A stretch of DNA of 64,000 nt from Acidobacteriota bacterium (GTDB taxonomy: Bacteria; Acidobacteriota; Vicinamibacteria; Vicinamibacterales; Vicinamibacteraceae), in the NCBI GenBank assembly GCA_020845575.1, contig JADLFL010000059.1, positions 1 to 64,000 of the forward strand. The letters are read 5' to 3'. Below are positions 23,876 through 59,591 of this stretch, piece after piece; the stretch's first letter is position 1, and each line of letters starts with the position of its first letter. Under the pieces are notes generated by a model. It was not told the origin of the DNA. It did not search any database and saw only the letters and a list, made by a program, of their open reading frames with translations. A program made the translations under genes and the position numbers.

Positions 23876-23952
23876 GCCGGTGTAGCTCAGCCGGTTAGAG
23901 CATGCGTCTCATAAGCGCAGGGTCGGCGGTTCGAGTCCGCCCACCGGCACCA
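23876..23952 (+). tRNA. tRNA with CAU anticodon (elongator Met, possibly Ile2)
   Basis: A full 77-nt cloverleaf is visible. The acceptor GCCGGTG pairs with CACCGGC, the D arm is GCTC/GAGC, the anticodon loop is CTCATAA with CAT at 23910-23912, the T arm GGCGG-TTCGAGT-CCGCC follows, and A-CCA is encoded. A paired first base rules out initiator tRNA. A CAU anticodon could also be the lysidine-modified Ile tRNA. The integrase gene begins about 190 bases downstream, so the tRNA 3' end is the likely attachment site of the island. Confidence 0.93.
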
Positions 23953-28670: not shown

Positions 28671-31600
28671 ATGCCGACTTTCGACGACGGATTCGAGAAG
28701 TTCGAAGAGAACTTCCGGAAGCAGCTCGCTGGCAAGACTCTCCTTGGCGAGATCCCGTTCGACGAGCAGTACTGCGACCTCCTGGCGGAGATGTTCAAAG
28801 GGCCGTTGACCCAACTTGGACTAGGCCGAGGTCTCCAGTGGATCCGCGCTCGATTGCCCATCACATTCGCGATGTGGCTGGTCAATGAGGCGTACTACGG
28901 ATACGACGGTGGCTTATGGCCCATAGTCCTGCCCAAGCTAGGCCTCCAGCACCAGCCGCAGTCGGCCTTGCTGGGGAAGCTGTTCATCGAGATCATCGAA
29001 GCGCACAAGCTCCCTCGTTTCGCAAAACTCAATACGAAGTGGTCCTACCTCGGGCCGATTCTTGCCCATTGCGGTATCCCCAAGTCGCGCCTTCCCGAGT
29101 TCTTCGAGGTGGTCCTGCCTGAGGCTGCCCGAATAGGCGTGAGTTCTCCGGAGGGATTGGCCGAGTTCGAGGATCACCTCGAGGAACTCCGTGTAGCGAA
29201 GGTAATCGACTGGTTTGTGCGGTTCGGCGAGAAGACCAGTGCAGAGTTCTTGCGCCGCAGCGTGGACATGTATCGGCTCGCGCGCGATGGCAGCGACCTC
29301 CCGCCTGCGGCCGCGCTGGGCCTGCCCGAACGCGTCCGGGCCGCCTTCGCTGACTGGCGGAAGACCGCCGACATACAGGGACCCGAGTCGACCCGTTCCA
29401 GGCTGAGGCGACCGCGCCTGTACGTGGATCCGTCGCAGGGTCTTCGGCTGGAACTCCCGTCGCAACCCTGCGCGCCGTCGCACTCAGAGCTGCAGTGGGA
29501 GATTCAAGTGGATTCAGAGGCGAACCAGCTCCGCAGGGCGCCTCGATTCGTCGGCGACACGCGCACTCAAGCCGACGACGTGCTGCTCCCGAAAGCCTTC
29601 GCGTCAGTCGTCGTGCGGCTCGCCGACCCAGTAGGAAGGGCCCTCGGAATCTGGGTGCTGAACGGCGTCTCACCAGAACTTCCGGTGATCTATTTCGATC
29701 CTGCGACGACATCGCTGCTGCCGTCCCAGCAAGTGGCTGCCGGCGTCGTCGGCATGATGCACCCAGTGGGCTGGTCCGTGGCGCTCGAGCCGACGACCGA
29801 CGCCAAGACGGCATCCGTCCTGAGCAATCTCGGCGCGCTGCCATTCGGGTGGTCGGCGTTCCGAGCAGCCATCTTCGACCTATCTGGTGGAACGAAGGTC
29901 CGGTTCGTGGATGCGCAGAGCATCGATCGTGGCACGCTGGAACTGGCCGAGCAGCTGGCCTTGCCGCCTCGGATTGATGGCGTCGACGTGCCGTTCCTCA
30001 TGGCGCCCGATCGCGCCCGCGTGTTCTCCGGAAGCGCGCCGGCCCTTTTGGTCGCGGCCACGCTGGACGAGTTCCGCCGGGACTGGCACTTGCGCGTATC
30101 GCCAGTATCGGAGCTGTGCGACGCTGCTCCCCCGGTGGTCGCGCCGTCGGCGGAGACACTCCTTGCCGAGGCGGTGGACCGCGACGGCAAGACATGGCTG
30201 CGCGTTCCGCTGGACCAGCCATCGTTGCTCGGTCCCCGGCCATGGGGTGTGTTCGACATCGCCGCAACAGGTCCGATGGGGCAGGCGCTCCGGACCCGAA
30301 TCGCCACCCTGCCCTCGATTCGCCTCAGTCACGATTGGGCCGAGTGGCGCCAGGGAGAGATGGTCCAGGCGCAGCTCTCTACGAACGCTCAGCTCACTGG
30401 CGCCGACGTTCGGCGGGTGAACCACGAGACTTGGGCGCTACCAGTGGGCGACGGTCGGGCACCGCTTCGAGTGCAGTTCGCCGGATACGGTGAGCAACGT
30501 TGGTCGATCCCACTCGACCTGCGGCTGCCGATGCCCTCATGGTCCGTGTTCGACGAAAGTGGGGCAGCGCACCTCGTGACGTGGTCGTCGCGCCCCGCCT
30601 CCGTAACGCTTCCCGACATCGACGGGCGCGCGCCGTGGCTTCTCGCCCGCCTCGAGACGCCCTGGGGCATTCCGCACGCTGTCACGGCCTCGCTCTGCTA
30701 TCACGACCGAGTGCTGCTGTCGGTACCCGTGCCCATGGAGCAGAGCGGCTTCGCACGGCTTGACCTGCAACGGGTGATGGCGGACGCAAGACAGGCGGGC
30801 TTGGCGCGCACGTCGCTCCGACTCGACCTGGAACTGACCCGAACGGTCTCGTTGCAGTGCCTGTGGGTCGAACACACATGGACGGTCGACCACCTGTCGG
30901 TGACGTCAGACGGTGATGAGCTGCGAGTGACCTGGAACGAACGTGTGCCCGTTCATGGCCGAGTGCTTCGCGCCTATTCCTTGCTCCAGCCCTGGGAGGC
31001 TCCGCGTACCGTGGCTCTCGGGGACGATCAGAGTGGCACGTGGCAGGGGAGCCTCGACGCGCTTGTTTCGGAGGTGGGCCGCTACCGGATCGAACTCGGG
31101 CTCGAAGATGAATGGACGGGAAGCTACCAGAGCGTTGCCTCGGCAGAGTGGGATCACGGGCACGCAGAGGAGTGGGAAACGGCGCCGCTCGCAGGCGACT
31201 CGTCCATCGACGGCATGTTGTACAGGCTCCTCGTGGCCGCGGCGTCGGGACGCCCGCTCCTTCCCGGACACAACGCCGTCGGGACCGACGAACGCGCCGA
31301 GGAGTTGGCAACGAAGGCGCTGCTCGCGCGGCAGGCCGTTGCTCACGTCCCGGCGGTGGCCAGGCAGCTCGACGCGCTGCTGCGTCGCGTTGACTTGTGG
31401 CCGCTTCTTCGCGGCGTGCTCGCGGCCGGGGCGGCAGTGACCCCGCGAACGTTGTTGGAACTCGGTGTGCTGACGCGGCCAAGATTCGGCGCGGAAGGGG
31501 TTCCGCTGAGCGACGAGCGCGCCGACGCCCTGTGGCGGTTCTGGGAGCCGCTGGGGGCATGGGCCGATTTAAACGCGATCGAGGCAACTGGCAGCCAGGC

Positions 31601-32222
31601 CGCATGGATGCGGATGACTCGTCGCCTCGGCGAGCAGGCGCTGTCGACGTTGCCAACGACCTTTCGTCCGCGAGTCGACGAGTTCGCCATTACGCAGATC
31701 AACAGCAATGGTGGCACGTTCCTGCGGGGACTCCTCGAGCACTGTCGTCCCTTTCCATCGAGTCCCATCGGCGATGAAGCGTTTCAAGCGGCGTGTTTTG
31801 AATGGACCATTGCAGCAGCCGACAACCTGGCGAAGCGGGGCGACCTCGAGGCTCTCTGTCGCGAGATTGGTCCCCTCTGTGCCGAGGCCAGGACCGCGAG
31901 TGACGTTGCTCCGGAGCACCTGCCAGTGTTCGAGCGCCTTCGCAGCGAACTGAAGGCGCGCTTTCACCCGCTCTTCCAGGACACACGGCTGCTCGCGACT
32001 CACGAGGTCAGTTGGCTGCTGGCGTCGCTGATGGTGTGGCGCTCGCTGGGTCGATTGCCATTCGCGACGTGCTCCGAAACGCTACTCGCACAGCTCTCGA
32101 CGCGGCTGTTCGATATCGCGCCTGCATTACTGGCGCACGACATAGTCAAGGTCTGTGCCATCGAGGCACTGCACACGCTCCAATCCAACCATGCCCCTGA
32201 ACCCCAGCTCGCTGACCAGTGA
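28671..32222 (+). CDS. Large unknown protein, DruH-like by position
   Basis: This 1183-aa protein heads the defence locus. I recognise no enzymatic motif. The N-terminal 240 residues look helical (FDDGFEKFEENFRKQLAGK). Residues about 250-850 are rich in short beta strands, suggesting several Ig-like or jelly-roll domains (TWQGSLDALVSEVGRYRIEL). The last 300 residues are helical again. There is no signal peptide, so it is cytoplasmic. It overlaps the DUF1998 helicase by 32 bases. A long protein of unknown fold directly before a DruE-type helicase is the layout of Druantia type III (druH-druE). That analogy rests on position and size, not on seen homology. Confidence 0.6.
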   Translation: MPTFDDGFEKFEENFRKQLAGKTLLGEIPFDEQYCDLLAEMFKGPLTQLGLGRGLQWIRARLPITFAMWLVNEAYYGYDGGLWPIVLPKLGLQHQPQSALLGKLFIEIIEAHKLPRFAKLNTKWSYLGPILAHCGIPKSRLPEFFEVVLPEAARIGVSSPEGLAEFEDHLEELRVAKVIDWFVRFGEKTSAEFLRRSVDMYRLARDGSDLPPAAALGLPERVRAAFADWRKTADIQGPESTRSRLRRPRLYVDPSQGLRLELPSQPCAPSHSELQWEIQVDSEANQLRRAPRFVGDTRTQADDVLLPKAFASVVVRLADPVGRALGIWVLNGVSPELPVIYFDPATTSLLPSQQVAAGVVGMMHPVGWSVALEPTTDAKTASVLSNLGALPFGWSAFRAAIFDLSGGTKVRFVDAQSIDRGTLELAEQLALPPRIDGVDVPFLMAPDRARVFSGSAPALLVAATLDEFRRDWHLRVSPVSELCDAAPPVVAPSAETLLAEAVDRDGKTWLRVPLDQPSLLGPRPWGVFDIAATGPMGQALRTRIATLPSIRLSHDWAEWRQGEMVQAQLSTNAQLTGADVRRVNHETWALPVGDGRAPLRVQFAGYGEQRWSIPLDLRLPMPSWSVFDESGAAHLVTWSSRPASVTLPDIDGRAPWLLARLETPWGIPHAVTASLCYHDRVLLSVPVPMEQSGFARLDLQRVMADARQAGLARTSLRLDLELTRTVSLQCLWVEHTWTVDHLSVTSDGDELRVTWNERVPVHGRVLRAYSLLQPWEAPRTVALGDDQSGTWQGSLDALVSEVGRYRIELGLEDEWTGSYQSVASAEWDHGHAEEWETAPLAGDSSIDGMLYRLLVAAASGRPLLPGHNAVGTDERAEELATKALLARQAVAHVPAVARQLDALLRRVDLWPLLRGVLAAGAAVTPRTLLELGVLTRPRFGAEGVPLSDERADALWRFWEPLGAWADLNAIEATGSQAAWMRMTRRLGEQALSTLPTTFRPRVDEFAITQINSNGGTFLRGLLEHCRPFPSSPIGDEAFQAACFEWTIAAADNLAKRGDLEALCREIGPLCAEARTASDVAPEHLPVFERLRSELKARFHPLFQDTRLLATHEVSWLLASLMVWRSLGRLPFATCSETLLAQLSTRLFDIAPALLAHDIVKVCAIEALHTLQSNHAPEPQLADQ

Positions 32223-35200
32223 CCTGATCGAGCAGTACTCGAGCTACCTTCGCAGTCGCTTTCACTTCCGCGACGCGGACCTGCGCGCGCAGTTCGCCAA
32301 GGCGCTGGGTGGCGATCGCCCGCTGCATGCGGGCCCATACCTCGAAGTACTTCCGGCGTTCAGGGCTGCTCGCAGCATCCGCGAGTTGAGCGCCGACGGT
32401 GTCCTTGCGCCTGAGTTCCTGAAGCTCGCCCCGAAGGCCGCCGACATTGAGCGGCCCCTCTATCTCCACCAGGAAGAGGCGATCACGAAGATTCAGGACG
32501 GGCGCAACGTCGTCGTGGCGACCGGCACGGGCAGCGGCAAGACCGAGACCTATCTGCTGCCGATCATCAGCCACCTGTTCGAGACGCTGTCGGCGGGCCC
32601 TCGCCGCCCCGCGGTGCGCGCGCTGCTGGTGTATCCGATGAACGCGCTCGCGAACGACCAGCTTAGACGAATCCGGCAGTTGCTCGCCGACGTGCCATCG
32701 CTGACCTTTGGTCGTTACACGGGCGAGACTCCGCAGACGAAGGACAAGGGCGAGGCGCGCTTCCGTCAGATGTGGCCGCATGAGCCAGTGCTGCGCAACG
32801 AACTCAAGAGCCGCGAAGAGATGTGGGCAGCCCCGCCCGACATCCTGATCACGAACTTCGCGATGCTGGAGTACCTCCTCGTCCGTCCGCAGGAAGCCGT
32901 CTTCTTCGCGCCTGGCACGGCCGAGTTCCTGAGGTTCCTCGTCTTCGACGAAGTCCACACCTACGACGGCGCGAAAGGCTGCGAGATTGCGATGCTGCTA
33001 CGACGGCTGAAGCATCGCATCGGGGCGACCGAGCGCGGACGCCTGCGATGCATCGCGACGAGCGCGACACTGGGCGGCGGGAAGGACTTCCCGGACGTCG
33101 CGGCATTTGCCGAACAGTTGTTCGATGAGCCGTTTGAATGGGGTGACCGAGCCAGCCGGCACGATGTCGTCCAGGCACACCGCGTCGAGTACGTCGAACC
33201 CGCTCGAACGTGGTGCCCTGAATCGTCGCTTTATCAACGGCTCGCCGACGCATTGACGTCGTCAGACCCCGGTGCGGCCTTGCTGCGCACCTGTCGCGCG
33301 ACCAGGCTGCCAACGGATGTCGTGGACGAGGCCCTCAGGGCGCTCGACGTCGAGGATGGGGCTGATGCGGCAGCGTCAGACCAGGAATCGGCCGACGACG
33401 AGTGGGGCTGGGGAACGCCGGCGGCAGCTCGCACAGAGGCCGCGCCGGCCGACGCTGCGCACATCAACCGCGCGTTGCATGTGCTGCTGCAGGGCGACGA
33501 GCGTATCGTTCGCCTTCGACGCGCCTGTGACAAGGGAGCGCGCCCGATCAATGAACTTGCGCGAGTCGTGTTCGAGGACCCCCTCGCTCCCGCGGTCGAC
33601 GGCCGCCTCCTGGCGCTGATTGGGCTGGCCGGCCGAGCAACAGCGCCGGATGGGCAGACCACGCTTCTGCGCGCTCGCTATCACTTCATGCTGCGTGCGC
33701 TCGAGGGCGGCTTCGTCTGCTTTGGGAAGCACGACGATGGTGCCCCGCACCTGCACCTGGAGCGGCGCACGACGTGTGCCGAGCACGGTCGCGACCACAA
33801 GACATTCGAGATTGGCGTTTGTCGCCGCTGCGGTGAAGCCGTGATCGCGGGAAGTCTTCAGCGAGACCCGATCACGCACCGTGACATCGTCGGCAGCGAC
33901 GATCCGACTCAGGACGCCCTGGTGGAGGACTCCGGACGTGTGCAGCGGGTGTTCCTGTCTTTGGCAGCGGCCGGGACAGAACGAATCGACGAGGACGAAC
34001 TCGACGCCGTCGACGAGGCGGCAGCGATCGGAGGCGACAAGGTCAAGCTCTGCGTTCGCTGTGGAACACTTGCGGAAGCAGGCGTGCAGGGTGACGTGTG
34101 TGAATGCGGTCCGCAGGCCGATGTTCGCGAGGCGTTCAAGTTGGAGGCGCGGGCTGGCGACTTGAAGGCCTGCCCGTCCTGTGGGACGCGCTCGCTGCAA
34201 AGGGAAGTGCTGCAACGGCTGTACACGGGACCAGACGAGCCAGTCGCCGAAGTGGCGACGACGTTGTTCCAGTCGGCCAATCGCGACCACCTCGACAAGG
34301 GTGCGCCGAAGCAGAAGCTCCTGACCTTTTCCGACAGCCGACAGGACGCTGCGTTTTTTGCACCGTACCTGGACAGCCTGTACAAGGCATCCCTGCGTCG
34401 CCGCGTGATGCTCGCGGCTATCGAGGCGGCTGACGGAGCGATGGCGGTTCCTGACTTGGCCACACGACTGGCTCAGGAGATCGAACAGCGCCACTGGCTT
34501 GGAATCAACGCCACCACCGGCGAGATCCAGACCGAGGCGTGGCGGTGGGTTGTGGGCGAACTGCTGCGCACGTCACGCGATCGCCGTAGCCTGGAGGAAC
34601 TGGCACTCGTCCGGTTCGCGTTGCGCCGTTTCCCCGACGTGCCAGCGCCGCCACCGCTGCTCCGCGCACCGTGGAACTTCACCGAGCAGGAGGCATGGGC
34701 GCTCGTCGAAGTGCTGGTCGACAGCCTGCGTGATCGCTTCATCATGGCGTCGCCTCCGGGAATCGTCCGCGATGACGAGGTGTACCTCCCCGGCCGCGGA
34801 GACATCGCGATCGCGGTCAAGCGCACGCCGAATGACCCGGGAACGCGGTCCTGGGTGCCGGAGCTGGCGCATCTCTCCAATGCCCGGCTCGATTATCTCG
34901 AGCGGCTCGCGACGCGCCGCGGGTTGGCGGTGAGCGCAGAACAGATTCGAACCTTCCTGGCCCAGCTGTTCACGCGCTACCTGACCGAGCCGGCCGGTGC
35001 ATTCGTCAAGCGGTACTTCGAGGCCGACAATCGAAATCTCGCGCAGGGTGTCGTCTATCGTCTGTCGCCACGCGGATGGGAGGTGTCACCGGCGCGTCTG
35101 TCTGGCACGGCCCACAGGTGTACCCGGTGCGGTGTGCGGACGTTCACGTCGATCAGCGGCGTCTGCCCGACCTATCGTTGTGACGGCGAACTCCACGCTG

Positions 35201-37440: not shown

Positions 37441-37489
37441 GTTCGATGCCCTTGCTCTCCGTGAACATCGCGGACATCATGGCGCGCGC

Positions 37490-40408: not shown

Positions 40409-40424
40409 CCTGGCGCACCTGACC

Positions 40425-46453: not shown

Positions 46454-46568
46454 CGACGATTCCTCGAAAGAGTAGCGGCCAAGCAAGAGCATAACGGCGA
46501 CAGCAGATGCCCCGATCTGAGTGGTCGTGGCCGTGTCTCGATGCGTCGGATAAGATGCGGTCGCCGAG
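46454..46568. promoter_or_regulatory. Divergent promoter region of PLD-BRCT and helicase 2
   Basis: The 115 bases between the two divergent starts must carry promoters for both directions. No consensus box, operator palindrome or strong ribosome site is obvious by eye. A longer minus-strand frame to 46702 runs through here but looks non-coding. Confidence 0.4.
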
Positions 46569-49500
46569 ATGCTGCCATCAATCCTCGCCCACGAACTCAG
46601 CGAGAGTACCCGCCGGTTTTTGATCACGGCGTTCGAGCCCGCAGACGCGTACTTCGGCGGCATCGTGCGCCGGTTCGTGGACACACCGGGTGCCATCGGC
46701 AAGGGGCCGTACCTGCAGCTCGGCCTCCCGTTTCGAGCAGGGACGGGGGCCCGCGCGTTCTTCCCTCGATTCGAGACCGAACACCCCGGCTTCAGTCACC
46801 AGGAGCACGCCTGGCGACGCCTCCGGAGCGATGCGGCGCCGTCCAATACGCTGGTCGTGACCGGCACGGGCAGTGGCAAGACCGAGTGCTTTCTCTATCC
46901 GGTGCTCGATCACTGCGCCAGACAGAAAGAGCAGGGCGCGGCACGCGGCATCAAGGCGCTCGTCATCTACCCGATGAACGCGCTCGCCAACGACCAGGCG
47001 CGCCGCTTCGCCGAAGTGGTCGCCCGTACGCCAGCGTTCGCCGGGCTCCGCGTCGGCATGTATATCGGAGGCGGCGGGCAAGGCAGCGCCGTGATGACGC
47101 CCACGACGGTCATCACCGATCGCGACACGCTGCGCAAGGCACCGCCCGACGTCCTGCTCACCAACTACAAGATGCTCGATTACCTGCTGGTGCGGCCGAA
47201 GGACCGCAGCTTGTGGGCGCACAACGCGCCGGACACCCTCCGGTACGTGGTGGTGGACGAACTGCACACGTTCGATGGCGCGCAAGGGACCGACCTCGCG
47301 CTGCTGTTGCGTCGCCTCCGCGCACGGCTGGGCACGCCTCCTGAACACGTCGTCTGCGTGGGCACCTCCGCAACGCTCGGGGATGGCGACACGGCGCCGC
47401 TCCGCACCTACGCCGGGCAGGTGTTCGCGAGCGCGTTCGAGGTCGAGTCGGTGGTCGCTGAAGACCGCGACTCGGTGGCGCAGTTCCTGGGCGAAGCGCC
47501 GATCAACCATCTGCTGCAGTCGCGCGACGACTTCGCCGAGATCCTCGACGCGCAGCGATATCGCTCGCAGGCCGAGGCCATCGCTGCGTGGTTTCCGGTG
47601 TTCTTCGCTGGCGAGGCCGTGCCAACTGACGTGTCGGATCCGGCCTGGCGATGCGCGCTCGGCCGCCTGCTCAAGCAGCACCTCCTCGTACACAACCTCC
47701 TGCGCGTGCTGAAGGGCGGCATCGGCGAGTGGAGCGTGCTGTGTGAGCAACTGACTGGCCCCATGCCAGCGGCCGCGCGCCCGCACGCGCCACGCGTGCT
47801 CGACGCTCTTGTGGCCCTCCTCGCTTGGGCGCGCGACGTGAAGGACCCGAACCTGCCGCTGGTCACCGTGCGTGTGCAGCTATGGATGCGTGAATTGCGT
47901 CGGCTCGTGGCCAGCGTCGTGCCCCTCGCCACGGGCGGCGACAACGCGCCTGTCGACCTGCCCGCGCTGCGGACCGCAGCCGACCTGAAGGCCGCGCGCG
48001 AGGGTCTGCACCTCCCGCTCGTGCAGTGCATCGAGTGCCATACGACCGCGTGGGTGGGCCTTCGGCAGAGCGGTTCCGTGAAGGTCGACTCGGTCCTGGA
48101 GGCCATCTACAACGCGTGGTTTAGGTCGGCGCCAGAACTGGTGCGGCTCTATGGAGACGCGACACTCGACCTGCCATGCCAGCGGTACCTGTGCGGCGCG
48201 TGCGGCAGATTGAACGACAGCCCTGGCACGTGTGCGGACTGCCGGCACTTGGGCCTCGTGCCTGTGTTCGAGCTGCAGGACTATCAACAGAGCAAGCGCG
48301 GCGACGTCACGTACAACTGGCACGACAAGACCTGCCCCGCGTGCGGTGCCCACGATCGCCTGCTGCTCCTCGGCGCGCGTAACGCGACGCTCGGCGCACA
48401 GCTGATTGAGCAGGGCTGGGCCACGCCGTACAACGACGACAAGAAGCTGATCGCCTTCTCCGATTCGGTGCAGGATGCCGCGCATCGCGCTGGTTTCTTC
48501 GGTAGCCGCACCTACCGGAACAACATCCGCATGGCCATCGCGCGCGTCGTCGATGCCCTCGCGCAGCCATCGGTGCCCTGGACCAGTCTGCTGGATCAGT
48601 TGCCGACATGGTTGCTCGATCCGGCGCGCTTGGGGCACCTGACGCCCGAGGCCTTCGTCTCCGAGTTCATCGGTCCCGACATGCTGTGGCAGCACCCATG
48701 GGAGGCGCTGCAGCGGGACGGCTCGCTGCCGGCCGGCAGCAAGTTACTGGCTCGCGTGCGCAAGAGGCTGGCCTGGGAGGCCGTCGCCGAGTTCACCTAT
48801 CTCTCCCGGCGGGGGCGCACCCTCGACCGCCTGGCGTTCGCCACCCTCACCTTGCCCGCCGATGCGCTCGAGCCGTCCGTCGATGCCGTGCATCGCCGCC
48901 TGGTCGAAGCCTTCGGGCTACGCGAGGTGACGCGCGATCAGGTGCGCCACTGGCTGTGGGGCATCGTGTTGCACCTCCGGCAGCGCGGCGCGATCACCCA
49001 CGACGAGATGAAGGGGTACGCGTTGTCGGGGTGGCTGGGCACGCTGACCTTCGATCGCGGACGACGGGACTGGCTGCCGCCGATCGGTCCTTTCAGTCAC
49101 CATCCGCAATTGCTGACCCTGGGCAAGCACCGCGACTTCGAGGTGCTGATCGACCGTGGGCGCAGCTGGTACGAGCAATGGCTTCGCGTGACCATCGGCC
49201 ACGGCCTGCTTCTGCCGAAGGGCTCCGAGCGAGAACTCTACGAGACGGCGCTGTCGGAATTGATCGCAGCAGACGTGTTGCAGCCCTTCGACGGCCGGGA
49301 CGGCCGCGCGATAGCACTGCGGGCCGAGCGGCTGGAGGTGGACCGCGACGCCGTGCAGCTCGGTGCCTCAAGTGGTACCCGTGAGCTGACCGTCTCACGC
49401 GCCCTTGCTCCAGTGGTGCTCGGCATGCCGTGCCTCGACGCAATGCACGAACGCTACACGGGGATCGTCGAGCCAGACGATGCCGAGATGTGGATGGTGC

Positions 49501-52500
49501 GCAGGTACCGCCACGGCGACATCCGCCGAGTGATTGCCGCCGAGCACACCGGCCTGCTCGAGCGTGACGAGCGCGAGGCGCTCGAGGACCGGTTCAAGGC
49601 GAAGCCGTCAGACGCCAAGCCGTGGTACGAGAACCTGCTGTCGGCCACGCCGACGCTGGAGATGGGCGTGGACATCGGCAGTCTGTCGTCATTGCTGCTG
49701 TGTTCCGTGCCTCCCTCGCAGGCCAGCTTCCTGCAGCGTGTGGGCCGGGCCGGTCGCCGCGATGGCAATGCCATCGTGGTGACGCTTGCCGACGGCGCCA
49801 GCCCCCACGATCTCTACTTCTACGAGGAGCCGTTCGAGATGATGGCGGGCGAGGTGGCGCCGCCGGGCACGTTCCTGCAGGCGCCGGAAGTGCTGCGTCG
49901 CCAGCTACTGGCCTTCTGCCTCGACACCTGGGTCGCCAGCGGCATCGCGGCCACTGCGTTCCCCGACAAGACCAAGCCGGCGCTCGACGCCGTCGAGCGC
50001 AAGGACGAGGCACGCTTTCCGTACAACTTCCTCAACTTCGTGCAGAACGACGAGCACGGCCTGTTGGACCGGTTTGTCGCGCTCCTCGACTACCAGCCTC
50101 AAGACGAAGTCGAGCGCCGCGGCGTGGTTCGTGTCCTCAACCGGCTGCGCGAGTACATGTTCGGTGAGGGCGGTGTCGATGCCCTGCGCGTGGGCCTCCT
50201 GAAGGTGCTCGAGGAGCTTCGCCGCGAGCGCCACGCGTATCTCGAGCGGGCCAGGGACATCAAGAAGGAGATTGAAAGACTCAAGCAGCAGCCGAAGGAC
50301 GAGGCACGGGACGCGCAACTGCGCGACCACATCCGCGAGCGCGGCAAGCTGCTGGAACTCGCGAAGGGCATCAGCGACCGCGACCTGCTCAACACTTTCA
50401 CCGACGCGGGCCTGTTGCCCAACTACGCCTTCCCCGAGGCGGGCGTCGAGCTGAAGTCGCTGCTCTGGCGGCGCCGGCATGCCGACGATGAGCCCGGTGG
50501 CGGGCTGTACGTCACCATCACGCAGCGCTTCGAGCGCCCAGCGGCGTCGGCCCTGTCGGAGTTCGCCCCGGAGAACCGGTTCTACGCCAACCAGCGCCGC
50601 GTGCAGATCGACCAGATCAACATGCAGCTCGCGAAGACGGAGGACTGGCGGTTGTGCCCGTCCTGCCATCATCTCGAGAACGTGCTCGTGAGCGGCGATG
50701 CCCACCCGGCGTGCCCGCGATGTGGGAGCGCGATGTGGGGTGATATCCAGCAACGCCGCACGCTTCTGCGCTTCCGCCAGGCCGTCGCGAACGCCAACGA
50801 CGAGAAGTCCCGCATCGACGATCGTAGTGACGACCGCGAGCCCCGCTTCTTCATCCGCCAGTTGCTGGTGGATTTCGACCCGAACGACGTGGTCGTCGCC
50901 TGGCGTCTGCAGGACGAGCACCTCGCGTTCGGCTTCGAGTCGATCCGCCGGGCGCAGTTCCGCGACATCAACTTTGGCGAGATGGGGCGGCAGGGCGTGT
51001 CGTTCAGTGTGGCCGACTGGGAAACGACACGTCCCGGCTTCAAGGTGTGCCGGCACTGCGGGATGGTGCAGACGCCGCCGCCGAGGCGACGGCCTGGCGA
51101 GAAGCCAGGCCCGGTGCAGAAGCACGCGCGCGACTGCCAGTGGTGGGGCAAGGACCTGCCCGAAGCGGTCCTGGACTGTCTGTACCTCTATCGCGAGTTC
51201 TCGTCCGAGGCCGTGCGCATCCTGGTGCCATACACACGCACCGGCTTGAACGAGACGGTGCTGCAGTCGTTCATGGCGGCCTTGCAGCTGGGGCTGAAGC
51301 GGCACTACGGCGGCAAGGTGGATCACCTACGCATCACCACGCAGGAAGAGCCAGGAGCGGACCAGGGCCCGAAGCGTCACTATGTGCTGCTCTACGACTC
51401 GGTCCCCGGAGGCACGGGCTACCTGCACCAACTCCTCAGTGAGGACGCCCAGACGCTCACGCAGGTGCTGCAGAAGGCGTACGCGACGCTGCGGGCCTGC
51501 CCTTGTAATGCAGTGCCGGAGAAGGACGGCTGCTACCGCTGCCTGTACCAGTATCGTCAGGGGCGGGCATTGTCGAAGGTCTCGCGCCGTGCTGCGGAGG
51601 ACCTGCTTGGGGAGCTGCTCGGCAGCATCGAGCACCTCGAACGGGTCAAGTCGCTCTCCGAGATCCACATCAACGCGCAGCTGGACTCGATCCTCGAGGG
51701 GCAGTTCATCGAGTGTCTCAGCCGCATCGGCGGCACGGCGGGCCTCCCGAAGATCAAGGTCACCCAGGACATCGTGCAGGGCAGGACGGGCTACCTGCTC
51801 GAGGTGGGCGCCGAGCGCTACTGGGTTCGGCTGCAGGTGGACGTTGGCCCCGACGATGGGGTGGGCGCGTTCGTCAGGCCCGACTTCGTGATCCAGCCGG
51901 TGCGCGGTACTTCGACTCGCCGGCCCATCGCGGTCTTCGCCGACGGCTGGGCCTATCACCGCGGCGCGGTGCGCGCCGATGCGCAGAAGCGTTCGGCGCT
52001 GGTGGCGAGCGAGAAGTATTGGGTATGGTCGGTCGTCTGGGAAGACGTGCAGGCGGCGCTCGCAGGGAACGTCGAGGCGACCCAGGACGTGATGGCCGCG
52101 CACGCGCGCCTTGGGGTTTCGGATCCGCTTGTCGTGAAGGTGCGATCGAGTCTGGGCCGCGGCTCCGGCACTATCAGCGAACACGCCGTGGCGCGCCTGG
52201 TGCGCTGGCTGTCCGATCCGGCTGATGATCCGGACGATGGAGCCTTACGGCGACGACAGCGCGAGGCTGCGGTGCTCGCGGCGCGCCTGATTGTGCATCC
52301 CCAGTCGCCGGACATCCCCGCGGCGCGAGGTGCGCTACAAGCCGTGGCAGCCGCCCTGCCTGATGGCCATCACGAGGCACCTCTGGATGCCGCGGTCGGA
52401 TGGTCGAAGGAGCCCTTGCGTGCGGCCGTCGTCAGGTTGGCATGGCCGCAGGCGTACATGCGCGGTGACTTCTCTGCAGGGTTTGGCGCGATCACCCTTG

Positions 52501-53000
52501 CGCCCGCCCAGGCACCGACGCCGGAGGCATTGAAAGCTTCCTGGCGGGAATGGCTGGAGCTGTTCAACGAGCTGCAAGTGCTGCCCGGCACGTTCCTGAT
52601 GGAGCAGGTCGGTATCGAGCACGGCGACTATGGCGGCCTCGCGCCTGCGGCGGTGAGTTCGTCGGTTCCAGTGCCCGCGGACGAGACCGACGGTGAGGCC
52701 CGCGCCTGGGACGTGGCCATTGGCCAGGCGGTAGGCGAGATGCATGAAGGGATGAGGGCTCTCGCCGCGCGTGGGGTGCCGGCTCCAGACGCGGTCGGCG
52801 TGGAGTTGGCGTCGACGAGCGGCGGCGTGATCGCCGAGGCCGAACTGCAGTGGGAGCAGCCGCATCTCGTGGTGCTGGCGCCCCACCAGGCCGAGCAGGT
52901 CGAGGCGTGCAAGGCGGCTGGCTGGCAGGTGGTGCTGGCTGTAGATTCAGGCTGGGCCGATACGGTCGCCCTGGCCATCATCGAGGTCGCAGACGTATGA
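46569..53000 (+). CDS. YprA-type helicase with DUF1998 and nuclease-like tail (helicase 2)
   Basis: This 2143-aa superfamily 2 helicase has Walker A TGTGSGKTE at 98-106, VIYPMNALANDQ, DELH at 230-233 and GTSATLGDG. The second domain shows LSATPTLEMGVDIGSLSSLL and QRVGRAGRRDGNAIVV. Cysteine clusters include CGACGRLNDSPGTCADC and CPSCHH...CPRCG. The DUF1998 part is LLYDSVPGGTGYLHQLLSED with ACPCNAVPEKDGCYRCLYQY. Near residues 1770-1800, VRPDFVIQP and IAVFADGWAYHRG look like a Vsr/PD-(D/E)XK fold. The final 350 residues are unassigned. It is 40% longer than a DrmA and best fits the DruE-like branch. Its stop overlaps the next ATG. Confidence 0.85.
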   Translation: MLPSILAHELSESTRRFLITAFEPADAYFGGIVRRFVDTPGAIGKGPYLQLGLPFRAGTGARAFFPRFETEHPGFSHQEHAWRRLRSDAAPSNTLVVTGTGSGKTECFLYPVLDHCARQKEQGAARGIKALVIYPMNALANDQARRFAEVVARTPAFAGLRVGMYIGGGGQGSAVMTPTTVITDRDTLRKAPPDVLLTNYKMLDYLLVRPKDRSLWAHNAPDTLRYVVVDELHTFDGAQGTDLALLLRRLRARLGTPPEHVVCVGTSATLGDGDTAPLRTYAGQVFASAFEVESVVAEDRDSVAQFLGEAPINHLLQSRDDFAEILDAQRYRSQAEAIAAWFPVFFAGEAVPTDVSDPAWRCALGRLLKQHLLVHNLLRVLKGGIGEWSVLCEQLTGPMPAAARPHAPRVLDALVALLAWARDVKDPNLPLVTVRVQLWMRELRRLVASVVPLATGGDNAPVDLPALRTAADLKAAREGLHLPLVQCIECHTTAWVGLRQSGSVKVDSVLEAIYNAWFRSAPELVRLYGDATLDLPCQRYLCGACGRLNDSPGTCADCRHLGLVPVFELQDYQQSKRGDVTYNWHDKTCPACGAHDRLLLLGARNATLGAQLIEQGWATPYNDDKKLIAFSDSVQDAAHRAGFFGSRTYRNNIRMAIARVVDALAQPSVPWTSLLDQLPTWLLDPARLGHLTPEAFVSEFIGPDMLWQHPWEALQRDGSLPAGSKLLARVRKRLAWEAVAEFTYLSRRGRTLDRLAFATLTLPADALEPSVDAVHRRLVEAFGLREVTRDQVRHWLWGIVLHLRQRGAITHDEMKGYALSGWLGTLTFDRGRRDWLPPIGPFSHHPQLLTLGKHRDFEVLIDRGRSWYEQWLRVTIGHGLLLPKGSERELYETALSELIAADVLQPFDGRDGRAIALRAERLEVDRDAVQLGASSGTRELTVSRALAPVVLGMPCLDAMHERYTGIVEPDDAEMWMVRRYRHGDIRRVIAAEHTGLLERDEREALEDRFKAKPSDAKPWYENLLSATPTLEMGVDIGSLSSLLLCSVPPSQASFLQRVGRAGRRDGNAIVVTLADGASPHDLYFYEEPFEMMAGEVAPPGTFLQAPEVLRRQLLAFCLDTWVASGIAATAFPDKTKPALDAVERKDEARFPYNFLNFVQNDEHGLLDRFVALLDYQPQDEVERRGVVRVLNRLREYMFGEGGVDALRVGLLKVLEELRRERHAYLERARDIKKEIERLKQQPKDEARDAQLRDHIRERGKLLELAKGISDRDLLNTFTDAGLLPNYAFPEAGVELKSLLWRRRHADDEPGGGLYVTITQRFERPAASALSEFAPENRFYANQRRVQIDQINMQLAKTEDWRLCPSCHHLENVLVSGDAHPACPRCGSAMWGDIQQRRTLLRFRQAVANANDEKSRIDDRSDDREPRFFIRQLLVDFDPNDVVVAWRLQDEHLAFGFESIRRAQFRDINFGEMGRQGVSFSVADWETTRPGFKVCRHCGMVQTPPPRRRPGEKPGPVQKHARDCQWWGKDLPEAVLDCLYLYREFSSEAVRILVPYTRTGLNETVLQSFMAALQLGLKRHYGGKVDHLRITTQEEPGADQGPKRHYVLLYDSVPGGTGYLHQLLSEDAQTLTQVLQKAYATLRACPCNAVPEKDGCYRCLYQYRQGRALSKVSRRAAEDLLGELLGSIEHLERVKSLSEIHINAQLDSILEGQFIECLSRIGGTAGLPKIKVTQDIVQGRTGYLLEVGAERYWVRLQVDVGPDDGVGAFVRPDFVIQPVRGTSTRRPIAVFADGWAYHRGAVRADAQKRSALVASEKYWVWSVVWEDVQAALAGNVEATQDVMAAHARLGVSDPLVVKVRSSLGRGSGTISEHAVARLVRWLSDPADDPDDGALRRRQREAAVLAARLIVHPQSPDIPAARGALQAVAAALPDGHHEAPLDAAVGWSKEPLRAAVVRLAWPQAYMRGDFSAGFGAITLAPAQAPTPEALKASWREWLELFNELQVLPGTFLMEQVGIEHGDYGGLAPAAVSSSVPVPADETDGEARAWDVAIGQAVGEMHEGMRALAARGVPAPDAVGVELASTSGGVIAEAELQWEQPHLVVLAPHQAEQVEACKAAGWQVVLAVDSGWADTVALAIIEVADV

Positions 53001-55093
53001 GTATCGCTCCACGCGTGGCGCTGTCGCAGGACTTCCTTCTCAAGCTCGGGAAGCTGCCAGCCGCTGTTCACGCCAACGTCGTGAAGTGGGCCCTCAAGTT
53101 CCAGCAGAACCCGACGGCGCCAGGCATCAACTACGAGGTCATCCGCGCCGCGCGCGACCGGAACCTGCGGTCGATTCGCATCGACCAGGACTGGCGCGGC
53201 ATCGTGTTCCGTCCCGAACAGGGAGACCTGTACATCCTCTTGCACGTCGACACGCACGACGAGGCCTATCGTTGGGCCGAGCGTCGCAAGTTGTCGGTGA
53301 ACCCGGTGACCGGGGCTATGCAGATGGTGAACCTCGAGGCTGTCGAGGCCCAGGCGGCTCCGGAAGCCCACGTTCGCGTTGCGCCTGCGGCAGACGCGCC
53401 AGCGCCGGCCCGCGAGGAGGTGGCCGCTCCGGCAGCCTCACCGCTGTTCAAGGACCTCACCGACGAGCAGTTGGTGCAGATCGGCACACCGCCGGAACTG
53501 ATTCCCATCGTGCGTTCGATGACGTCGGACGCGGACCTCGACCATGCGCAGGAGTTATTGCCCGTCGAGGCGTACGAAGGCCTGTTCCTGATTGCCGCGG
53601 GCGACTCGGTTACCCAGGTGCTCGTCGGACGCGAGACGCGGGTGGACCGCAAGGTCGATCCCGACGACTTCGTCACGGCCCTCGACACCGCTGAGAGCCA
53701 GTCGCGCTTCGTCGTCGTGACCAGCGACACGGAGATGTCGGCCATCCTCAACGCCCCGTTGCAGCAGTGGCGCGTGTTCCTGCATCCCACGCAGCGCAAG
53801 CTGGCCGACGGCGACAGGAGCGGGCCGGTCCGCGTGCTCGGTGGCGCCGGCACAGGGAAGACGGTACTCGCGATGCATCGCGCCGTGTGGCTCGCGAAGC
53901 ACAGGGCTTCACCCGAGAAGAAGGTCCTCTTCACGACGTTCACGCGCAACCTGGCGTTGGACGTCGAACACAACCTGAAGTCCCTGTTCCTTGGCGACCC
54001 GGCCTCAGCCAACGTGGAGGTCACCAACCTCGATCGGTGGGTACACGGATACCTGCGCAGGAAGAAGTACCCACATCGTATTGCCTACGGCCTGCAAGAC
54101 GACCCATGGCGGAGCGCCCTGGAACTCGCCCCTGCATCGCTGGGCCTCGATGACGCGTTCTTCGCCGATGAATGGTCGCAGGTGATCACGGCCCAGGGGA
54201 TCGACTCGCTCGACGACTACCGGAAGGCGTCGCGCGTGGGACGGGGCACCGTCCTCACCCGGGCCAAGCGAGACCAGATCTGGCCCGTGTTCGAGGAGTA
54301 CCGGCTGCAGCTCAGCTCGCGTCAGCTCAAGGACGCCGACGACGCGTTCCGCGACGCCGCGGCGCTACTCGCCAGCGAGAAGGAGTCGCTCCCGTATGGC
54401 TCCATCATCGTCGACGAGACGCAGGACTTCGGGCAACAGGCGTTGGTGCTGCTGCGCGCGATGGCCGCGAAGGGACAGAACGACCTCTTCTTCGTGGGTG
54501 ACGGGCATCAGCGCATCTACGCGCGCCATCGGGCTGCGATGGGCAAGTGCGGCATCGACATTCGTGGCCGCTCCAGGAAGCTGTACCTGAATTACCGCAC
54601 GACCGAGGAGATCCGCCGCTTCGCTGTCGCGCAGCTCGAGGGCCGCGAGATTGACGACATGGACGGCGGGACGGACGACAATCGTCTGTACAAGTCGCTG
54701 TCCCATGGCCCCGCGCCGGAGCAGGTCGAGACCTCGAGCCCCGACCAGGCCTTGGACGTAGCGATCGCGCGCATCACAGGTTGGCTGAGCGACCCAGACC
54801 TGCCGGCTGGAACGGTGTGCCTCATGGCACCCTCCAAGAAGCTGCGCGGCGCCGTGGCCGACCGGCTGAAGGCGGCGAAGCTGCCCGTGAGCGTTGTGAC
54901 GTCGGAATCGGCTGACACAGCGTCCGGCGACGCCGTCCGCGTGGCCACGATGCATCGGGCGAAGGGATTGGAGTTCGACCGGGTGGTGGTGCTGGCTCCC
55001 AAGGGGGTCGAACCTGCGGGCGGAACCGATATCGCGCAATTGATCTACGTGTCGCTGACGAGAGCCAAGACGGCCGCCGTCCTCGTCCGGTGA
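52997..55093 (+). CDS. UvrD-like helicase with RelE-like N-terminal domain
   Basis: This 698-aa protein starts at ATG 52997, overlapping the helicase 2 stop (ATGA). Residues 1-95 (LPAAVHANVVKWALKFQQNP, LRSIRIDQDWRGIVFR, YILLHVDTHDEAYRWAERR) resemble the RelE/ParE toxin fold. A linker follows (100-260). The superfamily 1 helicase has GGAGTGKT at 282-289, SIIVDETQDFGQQAL, KLYLNYRTTEEIRR, TMHRAKGLEFDRVVV and YVSLTRAK. All main UvrD motifs are present. The toxin-like part may bind RNA or ribosomes or may simply be a structural module; its catalytic residues cannot be judged from sequence alone. Confidence 0.85.
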   Translation: MSIAPRVALSQDFLLKLGKLPAAVHANVVKWALKFQQNPTAPGINYEVIRAARDRNLRSIRIDQDWRGIVFRPEQGDLYILLHVDTHDEAYRWAERRKLSVNPVTGAMQMVNLEAVEAQAAPEAHVRVAPAADAPAPAREEVAAPAASPLFKDLTDEQLVQIGTPPELIPIVRSMTSDADLDHAQELLPVEAYEGLFLIAAGDSVTQVLVGRETRVDRKVDPDDFVTALDTAESQSRFVVVTSDTEMSAILNAPLQQWRVFLHPTQRKLADGDRSGPVRVLGGAGTGKTVLAMHRAVWLAKHRASPEKKVLFTTFTRNLALDVEHNLKSLFLGDPASANVEVTNLDRWVHGYLRRKKYPHRIAYGLQDDPWRSALELAPASLGLDDAFFADEWSQVITAQGIDSLDDYRKASRVGRGTVLTRAKRDQIWPVFEEYRLQLSSRQLKDADDAFRDAAALLASEKESLPYGSIIVDETQDFGQQALVLLRAMAAKGQNDLFFVGDGHQRIYARHRAAMGKCGIDIRGRSRKLYLNYRTTEEIRRFAVAQLEGREIDDMDGGTDDNRLYKSLSHGPAPEQVETSSPDQALDVAIARITGWLSDPDLPAGTVCLMAPSKKLRGAVADRLKAAKLPVSVVTSESADTASGDAVRVATMHRAKGLEFDRVVVLAPKGVEPAGGTDIAQLIYVSLTRAKTAAVLVR

Positions 55094-55263
55094 TGATCAA
55101 GGAGCATAGCCTTCCCCCACCGACAGGCCTGGGCGAAGAGCAGAAGCGGCATCGGGCGGAATGTCGCCTCGACACGTGCCTGAAGGGTGCGCGCTCCACG
55201 CGTCGTTCAGCGCGCCGTCGACTCGGTCTGGTTCGATATCGGTCTGTCGGAGGGCACAGATGA
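55093..55263 (+). CDS. 56-aa micro-ORF coupled on both sides
   Basis: ATG 55093 overlaps the TGA of the UvrD-like gene, and the frame ends in TGA at 55261-55263, overlapping the ATG of the next PLD-like gene. The product (MIKEHSLPPPTGLGEEQKRH at its start) is basic, with an Arg-rich second half and two cysteines. It fills the whole intergenic gap. No homology is recognised. It might be a real coupled small protein, or a leader that keeps ribosomes moving to the next start. Confidence 0.4.
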   Translation: MIKEHSLPPPTGLGEEQKRHRAECRLDTCLKGARSTRRSARRRLGLVRYRSVGGHR

Positions 55264-56465
55264 ACATTGAGATCCTGAGTGGGGCGACATCTTTCGCCGA
55301 CAGATTCAGGGAATGCTGCTCTCGGTACGACCGACTGGACTTGGCAGTCGCATGGTGCGGCGATCCATCTAAGACTCTTCCCTACGACCAAATCGGCGCG
55401 TTCAGAGGACAAGTGGACGCGACGGTGGGCATTGCCCTCAATCGCACGCATCCTGACGCCGTGTCGTGGTTCATGGGTCGCCAGAGGACTCAGGTCAGAA
55501 TCGTGGATGGCGAAAACGTCTTCTTTCACCCGAAGGTCTATCTATTCACCAAAGGCGATGCGTTTGCCTTGTTCGTAGGAAGTTCGAATCTTACGTTCAG
55601 CGGCTTCTACAAGAATGTCGAGGTCAATGCCTATTGCGAAGGTTCGCTGTCAGCCCGCGGCGCCAGTGGTGTGAAGGAACTGCGCGGACGACTGTCTGAA
55701 TGGAGGACGGACTCATTCTCGTTTGTGCCCTCTGTGCGATGGCTGAACGGATATCGCAAGAGGTATCAGGCTTCATTGGCAAAGGCTCGCAAGGCGGGAC
55801 TTGTTACAGAGCCTCAAGTTGAAGAACAGGTTGCCAGCGCGAGTTGGCTCAGACAAGCAGACTGGAACGTGTACTACGGGAAGGTCCTCGCCGGGCTGCG
55901 CGGTTCCGGACGCGAGGGCGGGCTCCGAACGGCCTTGGACGCCGGCGAACGTTTGCTGCCGCGCCCATGGAAGACGTCCTACTTCTCAGACGTCGAGCGG
56001 CGTCGGGTGATCAACGGCCTCGGCGACGACTACGCCTCCCTCGGGCACGTTGGCGCATCAGGAGCATTCCGGCAGCTGGTCAGGAATGGCACAGCACAGC
56101 AGCATGCCACCATCGTTCGCAGCATGAACGCCATTTCGGCGCTCCCCAGGCCGATACCCTGGCGTCGCCTTGAGCGCGTACTGCATGATCTCGTGCGTAT
56201 TGGGCCGACGATGAAGGTGTGGGGCCGGTTACTCTGCCTAGTCAGACCTGACCTCTTCTGTACGGTGGCTGCCCCAACGGTCCGAGCGAATCTATCGCAA
56301 GTCGTGGGGATAGGACAGGGACGCTTCGCTGACGTCGATGGATACATCGAACTGATCCGATTGCTGCACGCATCGCCCTGGTTCAACACTTCAGCACCGC
56401 AGACGCGACGAGCGAAGGAGATATGGAATCGGCGCGTGGCGTACATGGACGCGATCTTCTATTAG
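55260..56465 (+). CDS. Phospholipase D-like nuclease
   Basis: This 401-aa protein has an N-terminal PLD-like domain: LDLAVAWCGDPSK, then FHPKVYLFTKGD with H90, K92 and D100, and LFVGSSNLTFSGF. One HxK motif implies a dimer. The C-terminal 250 residues are not recognised. GGAGGG five bases before ATG 55260 is a good ribosome site and decides the start over the frame opening at 55161. Its base composition is lower in GC than the UvrD gene. It differs from the PLD-BRCT protein and may be a second effector nuclease. Confidence 0.75.
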   Translation: MNIEILSGATSFADRFRECCSRYDRLDLAVAWCGDPSKTLPYDQIGAFRGQVDATVGIALNRTHPDAVSWFMGRQRTQVRIVDGENVFFHPKVYLFTKGDAFALFVGSSNLTFSGFYKNVEVNAYCEGSLSARGASGVKELRGRLSEWRTDSFSFVPSVRWLNGYRKRYQASLAKARKAGLVTEPQVEEQVASASWLRQADWNVYYGKVLAGLRGSGREGGLRTALDAGERLLPRPWKTSYFSDVERRRVINGLGDDYASLGHVGASGAFRQLVRNGTAQQHATIVRSMNAISALPRPIPWRRLERVLHDLVRIGPTMKVWGRLLCLVRPDLFCTVAAPTVRANLSQVVGIGQGRFADVDGYIELIRLLHASPWFNTSAPQTRRAKEIWNRRVAYMDAIFY

Positions 56466-56584
56466 CTCAGAAGCCATTGAAGGGCGCCGATCTTCGCCAT
56501 GCCTGTGAATGGCCGCGGCCAGCGGGCCGCGGCTTCAGGGAACATAGCTCCGCAACGAACACCGCGCCGCGAGAGGAACCTGCT

Positions 56585-57208
56585 GTGACGCCACAGCTTC
56601 TGGACGATAGACCAGATGAGCTTCAACGCCTTCTGGGAGCATTCAAGGCCGGGCGCACGGCAGAGGCGCTCGCGGCCTGCGAGACGCGGATCGCGGAGTG
56701 CGACACGGATTCGAAGGCGTGGTTCATTCTGGGCCTGATTGCCCACGAAGAGGGTCGGGATGAGGACGCGCGGCAGGCGTACTCCTCGTCCCTGTTCGGT
56801 CACGTCTACTGGCTGCTCCGACGGCGACAGGCGATGTATTTGCGACCGGAGAACCCTCACTCCTCCGAGCTGGCGGAGCCCATATGGATGAAGGCATTCG
56901 TCCAGGCTGCAGCCCGCATCACCGCGGAAGATGGTTGCGCCGAGTTCGGGCTCGCCGAAGAGCACCTGTCGGACGCTGACGCGCCCAGTCGAGGATTGTT
57001 TTGGCTCGACAGCAAGGGGCAGGATGGCGGCGTGCGCCGGATCTGGCTGGTAGACGCTGCTTCGGCGCTCTTCTACCTCCTGCGAACCAACGATTTCTAC
57101 AGCACTTGTCTGGGAAATCTTGCGGTCACGTTGCGGCGGCTCGGTGAGCAGCAGCTCGCAGCAGCGTACATAAGGGAAGCCGAGGAGATGCGGCCGCAAC
57201 AGTTGTGA
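56585..57208 (+). CDS. TPR-like helical protein
   Basis: This 207-aa product begins at GTG 56585 after a GAGAGGAACC-like ribosome site. The segments LQRLLGAFKAGRTAEALAAC, KAWFILGLIAHEEGRDEDAR and LAVTLRRLGEQQLAAAYIRE have the alternating small/aromatic residues of tetratricopeptide repeats. No enzymatic motif is visible; a scaffold role is likely. It follows the PLD-like gene by 120 bases on the same strand. An earlier start at 56423 would overlap that gene. Confidence 0.6.
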   Translation: MTPQLLDDRPDELQRLLGAFKAGRTAEALAACETRIAECDTDSKAWFILGLIAHEEGRDEDARQAYSSSLFGHVYWLLRRRQAMYLRPENPHSSELAEPIWMKAFVQAAARITAEDGCAEFGLAEEHLSDADAPSRGLFWLDSKGQDGGVRRIWLVDAASALFYLLRTNDFYSTCLGNLAVTLRRLGEQQLAAAYIREAEEMRPQQL

Positions 57209-57653: not shown

Positions 57654-57689
57654 TCCGCTTTCGTGGACATCTTCCGAGAGGTGGATACG

Positions 57690-59558: not shown

Positions 59559-59591
59559 GAAAGCCGCGGCCTTCTTCGCGAAGGACCACCG

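Follow-up and report, generated by a model that had tools for sequence, protein, structure and literature searches.

A locus in the 64,000-nucleotide window analyzed here (positions 1 to 64,000 of contig JADLFL010000059.1 in GCA_020845575.1, the assembly of an Acidobacteriota bacterium of the family Vicinamibacteraceae) is probably a mobile-island defence locus, in which a Druantia-like module of a large partner protein (H') and a DruE-class helicase (DruE') stands beside a complete ARMADA type II system (ArmA to ArmD) and a PLD nuclease gene occupies a cargo slot between armB and armC. The large genes named in a first-pass annotation made from the sequence alone (two YprA/DUF1998 helicases, a SNF2 helicase, a giant methyltransferase, two PLD proteins and a UvrD protein) are all present, with intact reading frames and with domains confirmed by Pfam. 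Coordinates are given in Table 1; in the following, handles beginning with L denote loci and those beginning with G denote genomes.

Identity of the ARMADA Genes

The stretch from 37490 to 55093, which the first-pass annotation had taken for a DISARM-related part and possibly ARMADA, is by homology a complete ARMADA type II system, with ArmA, ArmB, ArmC and ArmD in order and with 36–46% identity to the E. coli proteins. The reference was the array of E. coli CFSAN061761 (L157), which consists of Zorya II, DruH, DruE, ArmA, ArmB, ArmC, ArmD, other genes, an integrase and tRNA-Phe; its record gives names to the Zorya genes only, listing the others as helicases, a methyltransferase and so on, and DruH, DruE and ArmA to ArmD were assigned here by position and from Bell et al. 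2025 (PMC12458937). The DruH assigned in this way (1119 aa) matches the "DruH" of PDB 9tud over residues 3–1119 with 2544 bits. The A-B-C-D order is preserved in the window, with an antisense gene between B and C.

ARMADA type II is reported to consist of four genes in strict order, all of which are required in E. coli NCTC 12900, where the defence is non-abortive (PMC12458937). The window agrees with the system as described there in its gene order, in the RelE-like fusion on ArmD, and in the integrase and tRNA beside the island, and differs from it in that armB and armC are split by an antisense PLD gene and in that it belongs to another phylum and to a distant ArmC lineage. The N-terminus of ArmD aligns with that of E. 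coli ArmD; for this region Pfam gave only ParE_like at E 0.17 and the PDB search nothing relevant, and the RelE label is therefore taken from PMC12458937. In ArmC, an RPDF region is conserved by homology at the Vsr position, with no Pfam or relevant PDB match.

The two YprA-like helicases were placed with a quick likelihood tree of 60 such proteins, in which every one of the 35 DruE-class rows was included and 25 of the 94 ArmC rows were taken, some by choice and some at random; the tree has long branches, and its support values come from the Shimodaira-Hasegawa-like approximate likelihood ratio test (SH-aLRT) and not from a bootstrap. The window ArmC lies within the ARMADA clade as the sister of Dyella solisilvae ArmC (SH-aLRT 100), and DruE' lies among the DruE-class helicases, as the first-pass annotation had supposed of its helicases. 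DISARM has the helicase DrmA and the DUF1998 protein DrmB as separate genes, whereas in both window proteins, DruE' and ArmC, the helicase and the MZB/DUF1998 domain are fused. Among the other Pfam domains, ArmD carries UvrD, and each of the two PLD proteins carries PLDc_2.

The arrangement of DruH, DruE and ARMADA as such is already known, because it is common in the E. coli collection and is in print. The ArmA-to-ArmC stretch is matched in 520 of 5,426 E. coli genomes (513 at a coverage of at least 80%), and 525 genomes match the stretch across the DruE-ArmA junction, 514 of them containing 80% or more of that stretch at a single site. The association of ARMADA with Druantia III, which the first-pass annotation had mentioned, is real, and the two systems are reported to be synergistic against some phages in E. 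coli (PMC12458937).

The DruE-Class Helicase and Its Partner

The helicase upstream of ArmA is, as far as its sequence relationships indicate, of the DruE class and outside the type III clade that holds E. coli DruE. In PADLOC, it matches DruE1 (616 bits) and DruE3 (564 bits), where E. coli DruE reaches 2184 bits on DruE3, and in the 60-helicase tree it groups with the helicases of L145, L146, L147 and L200 (SH-aLRT 99) and is separate from the clade of E. coli DruE. DruE' is devoid of the C-terminal PLD domains of E. coli DruE; only about 135 aa follow the MZB match, and they form another kind of tail. Like Druantia III and the "III-B" branch of Bell et al., the module has two genes, one of them for a YprA-like helicase with MZB, and the missing nuclease domain is what has been published for most III-B helicases, a likeness by description only. 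The module differs from Druantia III in its partner protein, for which PADLOC, Pfam and NCBIfam all returned no match.

The partner, H', stands directly upstream of DruE' in all six readable contexts (the window, L145, L146, L147, L200 and L210), and in a seventh genome, G078, H' and a DruE-like gene are on different contigs. Relatives of H' occur in 5 of the 396 genomes searched from the phylum of the window (the window included), in 2 of 103 genomes of the phylum of G412 and in none of 349 genomes of the phylum of Dyella; none were found in plasmids, phages or viral contigs. A single-protein search of 46 ARMADA genomes that returned no H' was a false negative, as a profile later found the relative in G412.

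The locus could be an ordinary Druantia III beside ARMADA II, as in E. coli, with H' as a DruH that has diverged past detection by sequence, and we give this reading considerable, though not predominant, credence. H' has the position and order of DruH and a similar length (1183 versus 1119 aa), and sequence divergence is reported to be substantially greater for DruH than for DruE (PMC13192584). The best hhalign comparison of H' with DruH is collinear at the N-termini (33–152 versus 35–157) and scores 25.4, above the 16.7–19.7 of three unrelated proteins. However, its probability is 0.6%, whereas a control in which H' was split and aligned with itself gave 99.8%; blastp, hmmsearch and hhalign all failed to give a significant match between H' and E. 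coli DruH, and DruE' lies outside the E. coli DruE clade. After these searches, together with PADLOC, NCBIfam and a PDB profile search, the identity of H' with DruH was rejected as unproven. By these comparisons, H' belongs to a separate partner family of a DruE-class helicase, with no detectable similarity to DruH, and may at most be remotely related to it.

The assignment of 28671–37440 as Druantia III-like in the first-pass annotation thus stands for the layout and the DruE family, and does not stand for the presence of DruH or for the type III clade. Likewise, the profile searches that it had called for gave the DruE1/DruE3 and DrmD/BrxHII matches and no DruH match for H'. As in the L157 array, a gene for a large partner and one for a DruE helicase immediately precede ArmA in the window, all on one strand; unlike in L157, no Zorya gene was found among the window proteins searched, the partner is not detectably DruH, and DruE' is of another clade, without PLD domains and with a tail of the ArmC/ZorE type.

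Other neighbors were observed beside DruE' and related helicases. At L210:7444-18836 (G856), the H'-DruE' pair adjoins an 848-aa protein that is divergent and contains a PLD-like stretch, with no ARMADA match within the stretches read. In L149, L151 and L152, helicases related to DruE' adjoin long proteins of 1296–1452 aa, and those of L149 and L151, the two tested, match MzaA in PADLOC, which suggests yet another partner family.

The C-Terminal Tail Domain

By profile comparison, a single C-terminal domain of about 85 aa is common to ArmC, ZorE and the DruE' of the window and is not shared by E. coli DruE. A profile built from the C-terminal 120 residues of 85 ArmC proteins, from which the window was left out and in which a few loci occur twice, was compared with 36 DruE-class helicases. 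It matches residues 1674–1756 of DruE' (counted from the frame opened at 32155) with E 8e-14 and the helicase of L154 with E 4.5e-27; matches in L156 and L153 are weak, and there is none in the other 32, among them E. coli DruE and the proteins of L145–L147, L200 and L210. When the same profile was run against 8,816 open reading frames (ORFs) of the loci, it found E. coli ZorE and the ZorE-like proteins in the slots of L056 and L111, with E-values of 2.5e-18, 7.9e-23 and 1.5e-21, as well as three further weak matches in L087, L069 and L049. In the reverse direction, a profile of the three ZorE tails finds the ArmC proteins, L154 (2.8e-12) and the window DruE' (5.4e-6). Reversed sequences, used as a control, gave no matches, and PADLOC links residues 1678–1748 of DruE' to ZorE (25 bits).

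A conserved C-terminal region without assignment is reported by Wu et al. (PMC13192584) in 53 of 59 Druantia-associated ZorE leaves, where it is associated with synergy, and we infer that this region is the same tail domain. According to Bell et al. (PMC12458937), many ArmC proteins end in inactivated Vsr or EEP domains, and the helicases of Druantia I and II have an inactivated Vsr domain; the inactivated Vsr/EEP domains may perhaps be this tail as well. A word search of the main texts of PMC12458937 and PMC13192584 returned no link between ArmC and ZorE. DruE' may have gained its tail from ArmC, or the relatives of DruE' may have lost theirs.

At L154:4050-11313 (G075), the DruE-like helicase with the ArmC-type tail is directly followed by an ArmD homologue, which makes ArmD the first candidate for a partner of the tail domain; the 18 kb read gave no match to ArmA or ArmB, and this may be another system of a YprA helicase plus ArmD.

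The Junction between armB and armC

In ARMADA II, the junction between armB and armC repeatedly serves as a slot for cargo. Junction lengths were measured at 80 ArmC loci, the best 80 of 520 relatives. The B-C junction is 600 bp or longer in 28 of the 54 measurable loci, compared with 1 of 34 for A-B and 1 of 71 for C-D (Fisher p 5e-7 and 6e-12, respectively, with loci counted as independent), and the cargo is 0.7–9 kb long. The remaining 26 loci were left out, 19 because more than 600 bp lacked an ArmB just upstream of ArmC and 7 because of too little sequence. Lowering the threshold to 300 bp gives 28, 4 and 2 for B-C, A-B and C-D, and counting by clusters of 60% ArmC identity gives 16 of 33, 1 of 26 and 1 of 46.

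Occupancy was mapped on a FastTree phylogeny of 59 ArmC rows (58 different, with one locus in twice), on which it changes at least 16 times, with 14 changes forced by branches of support of at least 95. Shuffled states change 20.0 times on average, and a number as low as the observed one was reached in 19 of 500 shuffles, so that occupancy is only weakly tied to phylogeny. A homologous ORF is common to 8 of 378 slot pairs (blastp E 1e-6). Within the window's phylum, G392 has antisense cargo, G062 has a small sense transposase-like gene and G050 has no gene in the slot. In one Vicinamibacterales genome, two ARMADA II copies (L054 and L105) have ArmC proteins that are 81% identical, and their cargoes of 9.0 and 2.5 kb are almost wholly different, with one short common stretch.

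The cargo was compared with known defence proteins in two ways. Of its 92 ORFs, 84 were scanned jointly against Pfam and PADLOC for tallies only (8 small ones were dropped), and in 16 of the 28 slots one hand-picked, mostly large ORF was scanned against PADLOC (two in L056). A match at E 1e-5 or better was obtained in 15 of the 16 slots (none in L061), and 10 of the 16 reach at least 150 bits to a known or candidate defence protein, both figures being uncontrolled counts. The best matches are MkoA (1722 bits, L042), HamB (1121, L100), GajA (959, L118), ZorA2 (625, L056, whose second ORF had no match), LeoB (548, L086), the candidate family PDC-M07A (509, L046), AbiEii (395, L117), a CBASS phospholipase (359, L105), an Orf5/type IV enzyme (321, L106) and the candidate family PDC-M68B (197, L115); the systems represented thus include Gabija, Zorya II, Hachiman, Mokosh and AbiE. 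Of the two proteins in the slot of G392, one matches PDC-M68A through its HNH part (113 bits), and the second has no match. Genes of the Zorya II type lie between armB and armC at L056:1549-5048 and L111:4720-8239, with ZorA identified by PADLOC in L056 only and the remaining assignments made by similarity; in the E. coli record L157, Zorya sits outside ARMADA.

The slot may instead be a passive boundary at which insertions are merely tolerated and carry no functional meaning, with the A-B and C-D pairs evolving separately, and this explanation is quite possible, if not the favored one. In ARMADA type I, the YprA gene is reported to be usually first (PMC12458937), and therefore the pairs do rearrange; at the slot ends there are no long repeats and no site-specific scars beyond chance (mean 5.1 versus 3.4 bases in shuffles, with runs below 8 set to 0). 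On the other hand, B and C lie within 60 bp in 21 of the 26 loci measured as empty and overlap by 4 bp in 7; among the 77 cargo ORFs that reach 150 aa, 70 are co-directional with the operon; and 15 of the 16 slots scanned gave a PADLOC match. The antisense gene of the window is in the minority in this respect.

This window gene encodes a PLD (HKD) protein, the C-terminus of which resembles the ligase BRCT domain of 1l7b with E 0.1 only, so that "BRCT-like" is our own reading. That the protein serves this lineage as a genuine ARMADA subunit, in the manner of a nuclease comparable to DrmC, is improbable. DISARM does have the PLD protein DrmC, and the window protein scores 47 bits on the DrmC model; however, the gene is antisense to the operon, the slot is empty in the nearest relative, Dyella, and few relatives of the protein were found. 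There was none at E 1e-4 in the other loci first compared or in viral contigs, and the matches obtained are a partial one in plasmids (32% identical) and an L210 protein (29% identical over 125 aa) that is not beside ARMADA. A conserved ARMADA role was accordingly rejected for the PLD-BRCT gene. A single-sequence predicted structure had a mean predicted local distance difference test (pLDDT) score of 42 and was not used.

Back-up nucleases embedded in BREX loci are already in print (PMC12839542), with PARIS-, Schlafen-, HNH- and HKD (PLD)-type effectors described inside a large defence operon. The ARMADA II cargo is similar in kind and differs in that the insertions are concentrated at one junction and include apparent multi-gene systems. 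Genes between ArmB and ArmC are not mentioned in the Results or in the word-searched main text of PMC12458937, the supplementary tables of which may show the slot.

Features of the Island

Table 1. Features of the defence island in the window, with the evidence for each assignment.
Feature	Position	Strand	Evidence
tRNA-Met, probable integration site	23876..23952	+	ARAGORN and Rfam
Tyrosine integrase of the island	24145..25332	+	Pfam Phage_integrase, Arm-DNA-bind_3
H', 1183-aa partner of DruE'	28671..32222	+	21–24% identity to proteins directly upstream of DruE in L145–L147; relatives in L200, L210
DruE', YprA-like DEAD helicase with MZB and ArmC/ZorE-type C-terminal tail	32191..37440 (ATG 32191)	+	PADLOC, Pfam, tail profile
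ArmA, BrxHII/RapA-like SNF2 helicase	37490..40408	+	45.7% identity to E. coli ArmA; PADLOC DrmD/BrxHII; SNF2-rel_dom
ArmB, PglX-like adenine methyltransferase	40425..45590	+	45.9% identity to E. coli ArmB; Eco57I-type methylase; NPPW motif; start codon checked
PLD (HKD) nuclease, BRCT-like C-terminus, armB-armC slot cargo	45587..46453	-	PLDc_2 E 4e-12; DrmC model 47 bits
ArmC, YprA helicase, MZB, Vsr-type nuclease region (by homology), C-terminal tail	46569..53000	+	35.9% identity to E. coli ArmC over length; ARMADA clade
ArmD, RelE-like N-terminus fused to GajB/UvrD-like helicase	52997..55093	+	42.8% identity to E. coli ArmD; N-terminus aligned; UvrD
Second PLD-like protein (possible start 55161)	55260..56465	+	PLDc_2 just over cut-off
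TPR protein, system membership unproven	56423..57208	+	Pfam TPR

As listed in Table 1, the integrase adjoins tRNA-Met; next come an IS21 pair, a small gene that matches NucS weakly, and then H'. The source assembly comprises 4.57 Mb in 78 contigs, among which a 16S gene was not found. Its RuvB makes an acidobacterial host likely, with 74% identity to the RuvB of a Vicinamibacterales genome and 48–63% to those of eleven further genomes; among the latter, two acidobacterial genomes (59 and 60%) rank below two proteobacteria (62 and 63%). A second copy of the 25-base tRNA 3' end was not found in the genome with up to 3 mismatches allowed, so that of the features of a mobile element the integrase and tRNA-Met are present and a flanking direct repeat was not found, the contig being 77,733 bases long. 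The small protein (27816-28430, minus strand) matches NucS_C below the Pfam cut-off, and it has a relative (E 2e-38) near a DruE-like helicase on the viral contig L188. The second PLD-like protein has no relative at E 1e-4 among the other loci compared.

The four genes from 28671 to 45590 are closely packed, with an overlap of 32 bp and gaps of 49 and 16 bp, and the ArmC and ArmD genes overlap by 4 bp. This packing agrees with the earlier view that the first four genes look like one operon; the locus as a whole is not one unbroken operon, because the first PLD gene is antisense, an orientation that, like the cargo slot, the first-pass annotation had missed.

Genes of the IS3-type and IS110-type transposases lie on the far side of the locus (57593-60449), and ArmD ends 11–18 residues short of its relatives and is without a short stretch before motif VI. 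A decaying island whose parts no longer co-operate would account for the flanking IS21, IS110 and IS3-type genes and for the short ArmD; it is nevertheless very unlikely, as all core frames are open and the Walker A/B and NPPW motifs are intact.

Co-occurrence of the Two Modules

A set of 46 genomes that carry ARMADA II was searched with a DruE profile, with up to 10 candidates scored per genome and positions compared by hand. In G412 (Thermotogota, L200), the order is H', DruE', a 671-aa gene, ArmA, ArmB, ArmC and ArmD, which is a second case of H'-DruE' beside ARMADA II; the 671-aa protein (L200:718-2733) has no family assigned. In G430 (Thioclava sediminum, contig C1, 52960-58068), a 2104-aa DruE-type helicase is encoded on the strand of ArmA, roughly 14 kb upstream of it. 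The ArmC proteins of the window, E. coli and G412 fall in different parts of the tree, and the simplest reading is that different DruE modules were put upstream of ArmA independently in at least two, and probably three, lineages.

Several observations weigh against a combined H'-DruE'-ARMADA locus. Among the 46 ARMADA genomes, G412 alone has a DruE-type helicase at a distance of about 2 kb or less from ArmA. The gene-order comparison that the first-pass annotation had proposed gave H' and DruE' together in all six readable contexts and DruE rarely beside ArmA. Near ArmC relatives in Dyella (L074/L202) and Acidobacteriia (L049/L203) have no DruE-like gene upstream of ArmA in the stretch read, and the Thermotogota DruE' beside ARMADA is without the tail domain. 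Cutting by DruE' itself is doubtful, because it is without the PLD nuclease domains of E. coli DruE, and a sensor role of H' is an analogy, because H' is not recognizably DruH. A scan of two short stretches revealed no consensus promoter.

Proposed Mechanism and Implications

DruE is described as a helicase-nuclease and DruH as a likely sensor (PMC13192584). For the locus as a Druantia-like module with ARMADA II and a slot nuclease, the data establish gene identity and order, homology, tail homology and slot statistics, and each functional step below is inferred. Judging from studied relatives, H' would sense infection or license DruE', and DruE' and ArmC would be loaded where single strands of the phage DNA are exposed. 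ArmA and ArmB would act as in E. coli, in DNA remodelling and methylation, and the Vsr-type region of ArmC together with ArmD would destroy the target without killing the host, with the PLD protein as a possible independent back-up nuclease. The tail of ArmC, DruE' and ZorE is a candidate adaptor or DNA contact, through which the machines may act on the same intermediates. The packed genes and the tail common to ArmC and DruE' favor a coupling of both halves, possibly as the single fused system that the first-pass annotation had considered.

A broader reading, which we consider rather doubtful, is that ARMADA II is a platform, with armB-armC as a selected docking site for autonomous systems and the domain of about 85 aa as an adaptor that couples Zorya, Druantia-like systems and ARMADA, and with DruE modules placed upstream of ArmA independently at least two and probably three times (E. 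coli, this island and Thermotogota). If true, it would give a molecular basis for the known synergy.

In the open-licence literature, the H' family, the armB-armC slot and the tail shared by ArmC, ZorE and DruE' were not found in print. It is not yet understood how co-operation arises between neighboring defence systems, and ARMADA operons are suggested here as docking places for further immunity. The slot may be a simple place to look for new defence genes, if their rate exceeds that of flanking genes, and the tail match lets one small domain serve as a direct test of system coupling. The larger worth of the locus lies in the slot and the tail domain, with which the co-operation of stacked defence systems becomes testable.

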